Of a stretch of 64,000 nucleotides of DNA, positions 24,398 to 27,859 are shown piece by piece. A program made the translations under genes and the position numbers. The notes under the pieces were generated by a model. That model saw only the letters and a program-made list of their open reading frames with translations. It searched no databases and had not been told where the DNA came from. The number at the start of each line of letters is the position of its first letter. The first letter of the stretch is position 1. Origin of the DNA: Akkermansiaceae bacterium (GTDB lineage: Bacteria; Verrucomicrobiota; Verrucomicrobiia; Verrucomicrobiales; Akkermansiaceae); assembly GCA_017798145.1 (NCBI GenBank), contig CP059069.1:3519226-3583225 (forward strand). The letters are read 5' to 3'.

Positions 24398-25564
24398 ATG
24401 GAAGGGATCGACATTGCCATCATCGGCGGTGGCCCGGCGGGGCTGCGTGCGTCCGAGGTGGCGGCGGAAACGGGGCGAAAGGTCGTCGTGTTCGACGGCA
24501 AGCCCTCGGTGGGCAGGAAATTCCTCGTGGCCGGAAAAGGCGGGCTGAACCTAACGCATGAGGGGGGCTTGGAAGCTTTCGTCGCGAATTATCAAGGGGC
24601 AGGGGATTGGAGGGGCATGATCGCGAATTTCGATAACACCGCACTGCGGGCATGGAGTCACGGGCTGGGGCTGGAAACATTCCAGGCATCCAGCGGCAGG
24701 GTCTATCCGAAGGCTCTCAAAGGGGCGCCCGTGCTCCGCGCCTGGCTGGCGAGGCTGAGGGAAAAGGGGGTGGAAATCCGACCGCGGCACCTCTGGACGG
24801 AGCTTCTTCCCGGCAACGTGCTCCGCTTCGCGAACGGCGCGGAAGTCCGGGGGACGGCTGTCGTTTTCGCCCTCGGCGGCGGCTCCTGGCCCAAGACCGG
24901 ATCGGATGGCGGATGGGTCGAGAAATTCCGGGAACTCGGGATAGGTTGTTCACAATTGCTCCCATCGAACTGCGGATGGGAGTGCGGCTGGATGCCCGAA
25001 ACCCTTGCCGCCGCCGAGGGATTGCCGATCAAGAATATCTCCGTGAGCGCCGGAGAAACGACCGTTTCCGGCGAGCTTTTGCTTACCCGGTATGGCCTGG
25101 AGGGCGGAGCCATCTACGCCCTGGGTCGCGAGCTCAGGGCGATGGAGCAGCCGCGTATCCACATCGACTTCAAGCCGACCTTCCGATGTGAACAACTTGT
25201 GGAGAAACTTGGCGGCAACTCCGGGGATTTCCTGGAGAGCGCGATCCGCCGCTGGAAACTCGGCAAAGCGGCAGCAGCCATTCTTTCCGAAAAGCACCCG
25301 GAATCCCCGGCCGCCCTCGCAGCTTTGGCCAAGTCCTGCCCCATCGCCTTCACCGGATCCCGCCCCCTCGCCGAGGCGATCTCTTCGGCCGGGGGGATTT
25401 CATGGGAAGAACTCGATGCGAACCTCATGCTGCGGAAATTTCCCGGAGTCTTCGCATGCGGAGAGATGATCGATTGGGATGCGCCGACAGGAGGATACCT
25501 GCTCCAGGCCGCCTTTGCCACCGGAACAAGAGCCGGAACGGCGGCGGGCGTGTTCCCAGGGTAG
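24398..25564 (+). CDS. FAD-dependent oxidoreductase, HI0933/TIGR03862-like
   Basis: A 388-residue flavoprotein. IAIIGGGPAGLRASEVAAETG binds the FAD ADP moiety and GRKFLVAGKGGLNLTH is the family signature. ALGGGSWPKTGSDGGW and FACGEMIDWDAPTGGYLLQAAFATG close the FAD site. The family (BaiN/YhiN-like) has no firmly known general role. The gene starts on the base after the kdsD stop, so they are co-transcribed. Confidence 0.88.
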   Translation: MEGIDIAIIGGGPAGLRASEVAAETGRKVVVFDGKPSVGRKFLVAGKGGLNLTHEGGLEAFVANYQGAGDWRGMIANFDNTALRAWSHGLGLETFQASSGRVYPKALKGAPVLRAWLARLREKGVEIRPRHLWTELLPGNVLRFANGAEVRGTAVVFALGGGSWPKTGSDGGWVEKFRELGIGCSQLLPSNCGWECGWMPETLAAAEGLPIKNISVSAGETTVSGELLLTRYGLEGGAIYALGRELRAMEQPRIHIDFKPTFRCEQLVEKLGGNSGDFLESAIRRWKLGKAAAAILSEKHPESPAALAALAKSCPIAFTGSRPLAEAISSAGGISWEELDANLMLRKFPGVFACGEMIDWDAPTGGYLLQAAFATGTRAGTAAGVFPG

Positions 25565-25762: not shown

Positions 25763-26251
25763 TCACCAGCCGAGCAGCCTTGTTACGGCGGCTCGGAGGG
25801 CGGTTTCGAGGATGGCTGCATCCGCGTGGCTGAGTGGGATGGTGACTTTCCCGACCGTTTTGTCGCCCGCGTCCTGCCGGGAGAGGGAGACGAGGTAGGG
25901 TGCTCGTTCCGGATCGTCGCGGCGGGAGAGGTTGAAGGCGCTGTTGGATTTCTCGGTCTTGTGGAAGAGTTTCGCCTCGTCCTCGCGGCCTTGGAGGACA
26001 GAGAGTGCGGCACCGAGATCGGGCATGCCCCATTTCATGATGATCTTGTTTTCCCAGTCGAACTGGCGCTCGCCGGTCTGCGGGGCGGCATCGACGAAGA
26101 CCGCGCCCTTGGAAGGGTTCAGTCCGAAGCGGATGACCCCGCCGTTGCCGCGGGAGTTCGGTTTGTAAATCGCATGTTCCGGCAGGCGCTCGTAGCCGTT
26201 GTTCTCGGTGCGTGTGCTTGTTGGCGTGGTTTCGGTAGGTAGTGCGTTCAT
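25763..26251 (-). CDS. Whirly-like single-stranded-DNA-binding protein (proposed)
   Basis: A 162-residue protein. After a Thr-rich leader, residues 29-162 resemble the plant Whirly fold in order: IYKPNSRG, SKGAVFVDAAPQTGERQFDWENK (compare GVRQYDWSRK in Whirly proteins), a helix MPDLGAALSVLQGREDEAKLF, strands YLVSLSRQD and KVTIPLS, a helix ADAAILETALRAA, and a final LLGW. Whirly proteins bind single-stranded DNA as tetramers or larger assemblies and protect organelle genomes. A perfect Verrucomicrobiota LexA site lies 64 bp upstream of the start. I infer a DNA-damage-induced ssDNA-binding protein. The similarity was judged by eye and needs a profile search. Confidence 0.68.
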   Translation of the reverse strand: MNALPTETTPTSTRTENNGYERLPEHAIYKPNSRGNGGVIRFGLNPSKGAVFVDAAPQTGERQFDWENKIIMKWGMPDLGAALSVLQGREDEAKLFHKTEKSNSAFNLSRRDDPERAPYLVSLSRQDAGDKTVGKVTIPLSHADAAILETALRAAVTRLLGW

Positions 26252-26315
26252 GGCTGTGTTTGGTGTTGTTAGGAGTAATCACATGAACATCTTTTTCCGG
26301 GGATGGCAAGGAAAA

Positions 26316-26329
26316 TGTTCGGATGAACA
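26316..26329. promoter_or_regulatory. LexA (SOS) box, Verrucomicrobiota type
   Basis: TGTTC-GGAT-GAACA is an exact match to the 14-bp palindrome TGTTC-N4-GAACA reported for LexA of Verrucomicrobiota. It is embedded in a 9-bp perfect stem (26312-26333) followed by two further T residues. It lies 64 bp upstream of the Whirly-like gene and 66 bp downstream of the next gene's stop, so it should control the Whirly-like gene. A weaker half-site (GAACA at about 26285) is closer to the start. No other full match was found in this window by eye. Confidence 0.75.
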
Positions 26330-26395
26330 TTTTTTGGGGATCGCCTAGCCCAGATCGCGCACAAACGGCATGGCCGCGCGGAAGATATCCGCCCC

Positions 26396-27859
26396 TCAGT
26401 CCAGCGCTTTGGCGAAGGCGGCGATGATGGTGTCAACCGGCTCGAGTCCGACGGAGATGCGGAGGAGGTTGGTGGGGACGCCACAGTCCTCGGTCCAGCC
26501 GAGTTCCTCGTAGTGGGCGAGGAGGGTGTAGGGGCAGACGAGGGTGAAGGCGGTGCCGAAGGATGGGCCTTTGGAAAGCTCCAGGGCGTCGTACACCTTG
26601 GGTGCCTTTTTCGGGTTTGCGAGGGCGATGGAAAGAAGCCCGCCGTGGCCGCCGTTTTTGCGCATCACCGCCTCGTAGCGCGGGGTGTTGGTGAGGGACG
26701 GGTGCCAGATGTTCCCGATGGCGGGGTGATCCTTGAGGAAGGCGACGAGGGCGAGGGCGTTCGCGTTGATGGCCTTGTTGCGCTTTGCGTAGCCCTTGAG
26801 GTTGGAGAGCAGCACCTCGGCATCGGCAATGTAGAGCGGGGCGCACTCGGCGGCGTCTGTGGAAATGGACTCCGTGAGAACCTCGGCCAACGGGGAATCG
26901 GCGGAAACGGTGGCGGCGCCAGCCATGACATCGCCGGCCCCGGAGACCCATTTCGTGAGGGAGGAGGTGAGGATGTCCGCAAAGCGGAGGGCGTCCACAT
27001 TGAGCGGGCCGGTGGCGGAATCGTCGAGCACGAGGGGGGTGCGGGAGAAGCGGCAGGCTTCGTGGACGCGCTTCGCGTCGATGGTGCGGAGCAGGGGGTT
27101 GGATGGGATTTCGGCGAAGACTCCCGCGAATTCGCCGGCGCGGATTCGTTGGAGCGCTTCGTCGAAGGACTCGCCCTCGGCCTCGTTGAGATAGACGACG
27201 CCGTTGCCGAAGCGTTCCTGGATTTTGAGGGAATCGACGTAAGGGAACTCGAGCTGGAGGGTCTTTTTGCCCTCCCTGAGGCCGGGTAGGGAGCGGAGGG
27301 CGGAGAGGGCGGCGGAGATGCCGCTTGAGAAAAGGAAGGTTTTATCGGGGTCACCGCCGTTGAGCTTGGCGATGGCACGTGAGAGGAGGTGGGATTTCGA
27401 GCCCAAGCGGAGCTCGCCGTCCAGGTAGTCCTGGGCTTGGCGGGAGGAGACGCCTTCGCCGGAGAAGCGCCAGTATTGGCTGGCGAGGATTTTGGCTTTT
27501 GCGGGGAAAATGAGCGCTTGGAAGCCGTTGTAGGAGGTGCTGCGCACGGCGCTCTCGGAATGCCTCTCCAGCCAGCGGTGGGCGCGCTGTGAGGAGAGTT
27601 TCGTTGGCAGAACCAGGACGTCCTCGCCATCGGAGGCGAGTTCGGCGCGGGCGTTGTCGATGAGCCGCTCGACGGTGGGATGTTTGAAAAAGCGGGGGTA
27701 GCCGGTGCGCAGCCTTCTGATGATTTTTTCACGGCCTTCCTCATAGCCGACGACCGCCTCCCAGGACGGGAGGCAGACGGAGCAGGCATGGGTGGAATCC
27801 GGCAGCGGAATGCCGAGATCCTCCTCTTGCCACGCGGGGTTTGCCAGGAGATCGCGCAC
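26396..27859 (-). CDS. Cystathionine gamma-synthase-like PLP enzyme, fungal-type architecture
   Basis: A 487-residue fold-I PLP enzyme of the Cys/Met metabolism family. The catalytic part holds FAEIPSNPLLRTID, LVLDDSATGPL and SSLTKWVSGAGDVMAGA (PLP Lys in TKW). About 140 residues precede it, including ACSVCLPSWEAVVGYEEG and GYPRFFKHPTVERL. From memory these match the N-terminal region of fungal cystathionine gamma-synthases (STR2/met-7 type), which is absent from ordinary bacterial MetB. It probably joins cysteine to an activated homoserine. Upstream is the secreted hydrolase gene on the same strand. Confidence 0.8.
   Translation of the reverse strand: MRDLLANPAWQEEDLGIPLPDSTHACSVCLPSWEAVVGYEEGREKIIRRLRTGYPRFFKHPTVERLIDNARAELASDGEDVLVLPTKLSSQRAHRWLERHSESAVRSTSYNGFQALIFPAKAKILASQYWRFSGEGVSSRQAQDYLDGELRLGSKSHLLSRAIAKLNGGDPDKTFLFSSGISAALSALRSLPGLREGKKTLQLEFPYVDSLKIQERFGNGVVYLNEAEGESFDEALQRIRAGEFAGVFAEIPSNPLLRTIDAKRVHEACRFSRTPLVLDDSATGPLNVDALRFADILTSSLTKWVSGAGDVMAGAATVSADSPLAEVLTESISTDAAECAPLYIADAEVLLSNLKGYAKRNKAINANALALVAFLKDHPAIGNIWHPSLTNTPRYEAVMRKNGGHGGLLSIALANPKKAPKVYDALELSKGPSFGTAFTLVCPYTLLAHYEELGWTEDCGVPTNLLRISVGLEPVDTIIAAFAKALD

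Follow-up and report, generated by a model that had tools for sequence, protein, structure and literature searches.

A Whirly-family protein gene headed by a LexA-type palindrome in an Akkermansiaceae-like bacterium

In plants, Whirly proteins protect the DNA of chloroplasts and mitochondria. Passages of two reviews describe these proteins as plant-specific (PMC9070903) or as unique to plants (PMC6963530). The 64-kb stretch of DNA analysed here (the window), part of a host genome of 4.39 Mb in a single contig, holds a gene for a 162-aa protein that a first-pass annotation took for a Whirly under the control of LexA. The locus raises three questions: whether the protein is a Whirly, whether its gene belongs to the SOS regulon, and what such a protein would do in a bacterium.

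The gene lies at 25763..26251 on the minus strand, with its ATG at 26251, and the C-terminal end of the product reads ...TRLLGW. The first ~25 residues are variable and poorly ordered, and the Whirly domain, residues ~26-162, is basic (computed pI 9.3; 8.0 for the entire protein). Pfam PF08536 (Whirly) matched residues 48-150 with E=1.7e-8 and 34.8 bits, against a cut-off of 23, and was the sole Pfam family listed for the protein at E<=10; NCBIfam and PHROGs gave no family for it. A single-sequence search of the PDB returned six sequences at E<=10, all of them Whirlies, with potato WHY2 at the top (E=1.2e-10). The window's protein was then aligned with 43 relatives, drawn from 66 sequences with a defined start. 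Each of the 44 aligned sequences, which include two members (L014 and L015) of the second, SSB-linked subfamily described below, individually matched Pfam Whirly at E<=0.01, and three other Pfam families each weakly matched one member. An AlphaFold2 model computed from these same 44 rows, L014 and L015 again included, had a pLDDT of 89.9 and the order E-E-E-E-H-E-E-E-E-H, that is, two four-stranded sheets with a helix after each. With this predicted model Foldseek ranked Whirlies first, and VIA-align superposed 133-136 residues on WHY1, WHY2, WHY3, StWhy2 and PBF-2 with Z 16.5-18.2 and rmsd 1.9-2.3 Å, the best match being Arabidopsis WHY2 (4kop; Z 18.2, rmsd 2.1 Å, 133 aligned). The Whirly identity put forward by the first-pass annotation was borne out by the profile search, the PDB sequence search and the predicted structure. 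An assignment to PUR-alpha was rejected: the model reached Z 7.9-8.7 with fly and human PUR-alpha and 4.8 with Borrelia PUR, and for these PUR-repeat proteins there was neither a PUR profile match in Pfam nor a PDB sequence match.

The blocks that had first pointed to a Whirly fared unequally. GERQFDWENK, KLFH and the terminal LLGW are all there and keep their order in an alignment to WHY2 of potato and of Arabidopsis. The supposed likeness of a Lys-Gly strand did not hold up, since the plant KGKAAL motif is absent and the corresponding region reads YKPNSRGNGGVIRF, a stretch whose letters YKPN-RG-GG--RF the bacterial relatives conserve. Passages on the plant proteins report that KGKAAL is required for 24-mer assembly and protection (PMC6963530) and for ssDNA binding (PMC9070903), and that algal and Marchantia (liverwort) Whirly-like proteins likewise lack it (PMC9070903). 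Because KGKAAL is absent, we speak of a Whirly-family protein, not of a higher-plant-type WHIRLY. Compared with the plant Whirlies (WHY1/WHY2/WHY3, PBF-2 p24), the protein is alike in its Pfam match, in the order of the conserved blocks, in predicted fold and in the terminal Gly-Trp; it differs in being encoded by a bacterial chromosomal gene with a LexA-type box, in having YKPNSRGNGGVIRF for KGKAAL, and in an identity of only about 24%. Judged by profile match and predicted fold, the 162-aa bacterial protein belongs to the Whirly domain family, and what is new is that a family and fold already known turn up in bacteria, and there in a new regulatory setting.

That setting is given by a perfect TGTTC-N4-GAACA palindrome, TGTTCATCCGAACA on the gene's strand, at 26316..26329. 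It sits 64 bp before the Whirly ATG, as the first pass had stated, and is the only perfect copy in the 64-kb window, where shuffles average 0.03. This palindrome is reportedly the LexA site of Verrucomicrobia. A degenerate second site with two mismatches, TGTTCATGTGATTA on the gene's strand, lies between the box and the ATG at 26276..26289; it is weak on its own, and tandem sites are present in several orthologues. The promoter/leader region of the gene, at 26252..26345 on the minus strand, was searched in the window for a sigma-70 consensus and none was found. Upstream lies a gene for a Cys/Met metabolism PLP-dependent enzyme (26396..27859, same minus strand), whose end is at 26396; downstream, an HI0933-like flavoprotein gene (24398..25564, plus strand) is convergent with the Whirly gene. 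Both are unrelated to a Whirly system, and the palindrome therefore heads what looks like a single-gene Whirly unit.

The use of the same palindrome elsewhere in the host genome was examined by pattern scanning. Five perfect sites were found, against none for a reversed control pattern, four of them standing before recA, lexA, a Y-family polymerase gene and the Whirly gene, the fifth falling within a SET-domain ORF. The recA gene (L003) and the lexA gene (L005, an S24 peptidase with a LexA DNA-binding domain) were named by both Pfam and NCBIfam, above the NCBIfam cut-offs; the polymerase (L001) was named by its Pfam IMS match, the NCBIfam Pol IV models scoring below their cut-offs. The Whirly promoter region accordingly carries a site like those of lexA and recA, and the likeness to the verrucomicrobial SOS regulon is that recA and lexA of the same genome carry the palindrome of the Whirly gene. 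In the portions of the literature searched, no Whirly gene was found as a member of an SOS regulon. Since one of the five perfect boxes is intragenic, perfect matches can arise without regulation. When one mismatch was allowed the scan gave 44 sites, against 19 for the control, so one-mismatch sites alone carry little weight. The intragenic palindrome, at L002:1501-1514 in the SET-domain ORF, adjoins dnaG and is probably due to chance.

Conservation of the box was followed through the Akkermansiaceae-like family, in which Pfam Whirly was matched at E<=0.001 in 66 of 260 genomes (65 above the cut-off) and in 4 of 16 genera; genus g2, probably Akkermansia proper, is not among the four. The Pfam search gave no Whirly in the other 194 genomes, some of them incomplete, and Whirly is therefore dispensable. 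All 66 loci, the host genome's own included, were judged by one counting rule: a site no more than 300 bp before the conserved domain. A site with at most one mismatch was present in 63 of the 66 and was perfect in 51; the exceptions were L065, L067 and L060, the last with only 36 bp upstream. The 19,536 bases upstream of the domain held 78 sites (51 perfect, 27 one-mismatch), and the remaining 186,449 bases of the same loci held one perfect site and no one-mismatch site. In 62 upstream regions the half-sites are kept while the spacer letters and the surrounding DNA vary. What the consensus of these regions (letters common to at least half of the rows) shows beyond the half-sites is little else than a few consecutive Ts and a TTG-like element directly after the box, a layout as expected of an operator beside a -35 element; in some loci the box lies instead a few bases before the ATG.

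No conserved operon partner was found in the 66 loci, and the neighbours vary. At least 16 of the 66 have a PriA-like gene (replication restart; named by Pfam at L011) upstream, on the strand opposite to Whirly, and 7 have a GyrA-like neighbour, named by eye; these counts miss loci at which the true ORF gave way to a longer spurious one, as happened to PriA at L011. At L139, L024, L027 and other loci the PriA-like gene is divergent from a LexA-boxed Whirly gene, so that one box might serve both genes.

A scan of genome contigs extended the comparison. Among the best 80 of 126 loci, 47 had a site with at most one mismatch within 400 bp, and 31 of the 33 others have enough upstream sequence to judge; no title among the 80 names another phylum, and one reads only 'uncultured bacterium'. 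Fourteen named control genomes gave no Whirly. In the sister family (f2, Verrucomicrobiaceae-like) Whirly was present in 24 of 68 genomes, and no box with at most one mismatch was found upstream in any of the 24, two of which (L225 and L226) offer only 115 and 160 bp. These locus sets are not independent: the best 80 of 126 include 49 of the 66 loci of the Akkermansiaceae-like family and 20 of the 24 of the sister family. The sister-family loci suggest a constitutive whirly promoter. By eye, their upstream regions (L205-L223) often show TTGTCA/TTGCCA-like letters, then TTTTA before the ATG, and no box. On a protein tree, 4 changes suffice to explain the box label over 90 labelled rows, far below shuffles, and the box-less rows stand mostly outside the box-bearing group, with 50 of the 93 inner branches open. 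The tree left out L007 (decayed), L075 and L076 (contig-cut ends), L014/L015 and named loci with an identical protein, and the box labels of L008, L066 and L069 were set by hand.

A second Whirly subfamily was reached from two weak Whirly matches elsewhere in the phylum, L014, just above the Pfam cut-off, and L015, below it. The profile seeded with these matched 52 of 387 phylum genomes; six of the matches are of the window's Whirly type, among them the window gene itself at E=1.6e-12. In 23 of the 30 best-scoring loci an ssb gene lies upstream on the same strand, within 100 bp in 18 and up to about 500 bp away in the others; one ssb was named by Pfam and the others by phmmer. The relationship is distant: only 6 of 27 members match Pfam Whirly individually at E<=0.01, and the subfamily profile gave no significant Whirly in the PDB, WHY2 (E=0.74) ranking below coatomer beta (E=0.087). 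When the two subfamilies were aligned by hhalign without shared rows (A5 vs A4), however, the probability was 99.8 with E=6.3e-29 over 148 columns, and the predicted model of the second subfamily (pLDDT 90.0) gave Z 17.7 to both WHY1 and WHY2. The alignment A4 contains 27 of the 30 loci, L173, L181 and L184 (the last with an odd frame) having been left out. A perfect LexA-type site is missing upstream in all 30 loci; one-mismatch sites occur at three (L172, L185 and L186), in one case within 300 bp. The ssb-whirly pairs lie in L157-L186, for example at L157:1501-2064 with ssb just upstream, and at L014/L158 a GxxExxY-type ORF, named by eye, stands between the two genes.

To place the missing box, perfect sites were sought in 16 genomes of box-less loci. 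Thirteen have some and G242, G341 and G615 have none; in G612 and G616 the control pattern equals or exceeds the count of perfect sites. Four genomes of the SSB-linked subfamily, G242, G038, G162 and G341, gave 0, 1, 3 and 0 sites against 1, 0, 12 and 0 for the control, and thus no sign of a LexA-type motif in use. Of 17 perfect-site loci taken from box-less genomes, five were scanned for gene family. A perfect site stands at recA in L199, from the Prosthecobacter-titled sister-family genome G610, whose Whirly locus is L108 (= L214), and in L192, from the genome of the box-less exception L067; others lie near Y-family polymerases at L195 and, with an ORF between, at L198. At L203:273-1499 a perfect site precedes a radical-SAM repair gene linked to uracil-DNA glycosylase (TIGR03916), matching an SOS-controlled uracil-DNA glycosylase system reported for Verrucomicrobia in a passage of PMC8565304. 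With the box at the recA, polymerase and L203 genes and not at whirly, the SOS motif is still used in these genomes, just not at whirly.

The SOS-controlled Whirly of the first-pass annotation is supported; homologues without the box, which were to count against it, do so only in part. Its co-conservation with the box holds in the Akkermansiaceae-like family, and box-less homologues do exist in the sister family and, with nearly no boxes, in the SSB-linked subfamily. SOS control is thus a property of the Akkermansiaceae-like family and not of Verrucomicrobiota, and was either gained in that family or lost outside it; nor is damage control essential to the protein's role. A universal SOS Whirly in Verrucomicrobiota was rejected, as f2 lacks the box in all 24 yet the f2 genome G610 keeps the box at recA.

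The best reading of the window's protein is a bacterial ssDNA-binding partner of SSB, SOS-controlled in the Akkermansiaceae-like family. We consider it likely that this Whirly is repressed by LexA, is induced in the SOS response and coats ssDNA beside SSB during RecA-dependent repair. In the SOS response, RecA filaments trigger LexA self-cleavage. LexA would repress whirly by binding the palindrome 64 bp before its ATG; damage would expose ssDNA, RecA filaments would provoke LexA cleavage, and the freed whirly promoter would be switched on together with recA, lexA and the translesion polymerase. Whirly, probably a tetramer, would then coat ssDNA at gaps, stalled forks and resected breaks alongside ordinary SSB, would limit wrong (microhomology-type) annealing while RecA-dependent repair and restart go on, and may hand intermediates to RecA or to PriA restart. 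LexA binding and induction, ssDNA binding, the oligomer state and the repair role are what we infer for Whirly here, the steps after promoter release by analogy with plant Whirly biochemistry and from the company the gene keeps. Plant Whirlies are described in a passage of PMC6963530 as binding ssDNA, and plants without WHY1/WHY3 as accumulating rearrangements at microhomologies. The likeness to SSB lies in a presumed ssDNA ligand and in the ssb gene near the distant Whirly subfamily; the OB fold of SSB differs from the Whirly fold, and the host genome has its own, separate ssb gene at G000:C1:4267977, so Whirly does not replace SSB.

According to passages of PMC9070903 and PMC6963530, plant Whirlies also compact the nucleoids of organelles and were originally discovered as transcription factors in the nucleus. 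The bacterial protein might similarly be nucleoid-associated or transcriptional, coating or remodelling DNA or regulating promoters and not acting on repair intermediates, and the solitary Whirly gene with its variable neighbours would suit such a function. We think this unlikely, because co-regulation with recA, lexA and the Y-family polymerase, together with the ssb pairing of the distant subfamily, points to ssDNA metabolism.

The fold itself brings in RNA. MRP1 and MRP2, the guide-RNA-binding, RNA-editing proteins of trypanosomes, have a related fold, and their chains gave Z 16.1-16.6 to the model. That the window's protein acts on RNA as they do is nevertheless very unlikely: their identity to it is 13-14%, against 24% for Whirlies, no MRP chain was among the six PDB sequence matches, and SOS control and the ssb linkage favour DNA.

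Control by LexA could also be a misreading of the palindrome, which might be bound by another regulator or be non-functional, with a constitutive gene as seemingly in the sister family. The retention of a box-less gene by that family would agree with this, as would the fact that the motif is assigned to LexA in this phylum by an earlier report. The identical palindrome before lexA and recA of the host genome, and the keeping of the box in nearly all family loci despite varying flanks and spacer, make this highly improbable. That the Whirly gene travels on a phage or another mobile element, as its patchy presence in the family, its variable neighbours and a decayed second copy in the host genome might suggest, is scarcely credible, for a pattern-based scan of 2.9 million viral contigs and searches of 50,697 phage and 72,556 plasmid records gave no relative, the neighbours in the window are of housekeeping type, and the Whirly protein has no PHROG match.

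With LexA-controlled coating of ssDNA beside SSB as the preferred reading, a family described as plant-specific extends into bacteria, where its branch seems to belong to DNA repair. The parts of the open-licence literature searched contained no account of a bacterial Whirly; the Pfam model already detects bacterial Whirlies, and database entries may therefore list them without comment. The bacterial Whirly is a new candidate member of the SOS response, and its branch, with SOS control and ssb linkage, offers a genetically simple setting for the fold's action on ssDNA in repair. With this branch, the question of where the plant guardians of organelle genomes came from can also be put to the test. 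Tentatively, and with more doubt than conviction, we suggest that Whirly may be an ancient bacterial SSB accessory, in line with the ssb-whirly gene pairs in several families of one phylum, turned into a LexA-controlled, damage-specific ssDNA guard in the Akkermansiaceae-like family, and the source of the plant organelle Whirlies.

The decayed second Whirly copy of the host genome (L007) lies outside the window, at G000:C1:2770109-2770264 with flanks. Its N- and C-terminal pieces are in different frames, the middle is gone, and there is no box nearby. By eye, the C-terminal piece is closer to the L040/L047 type than to the intact Whirly gene.
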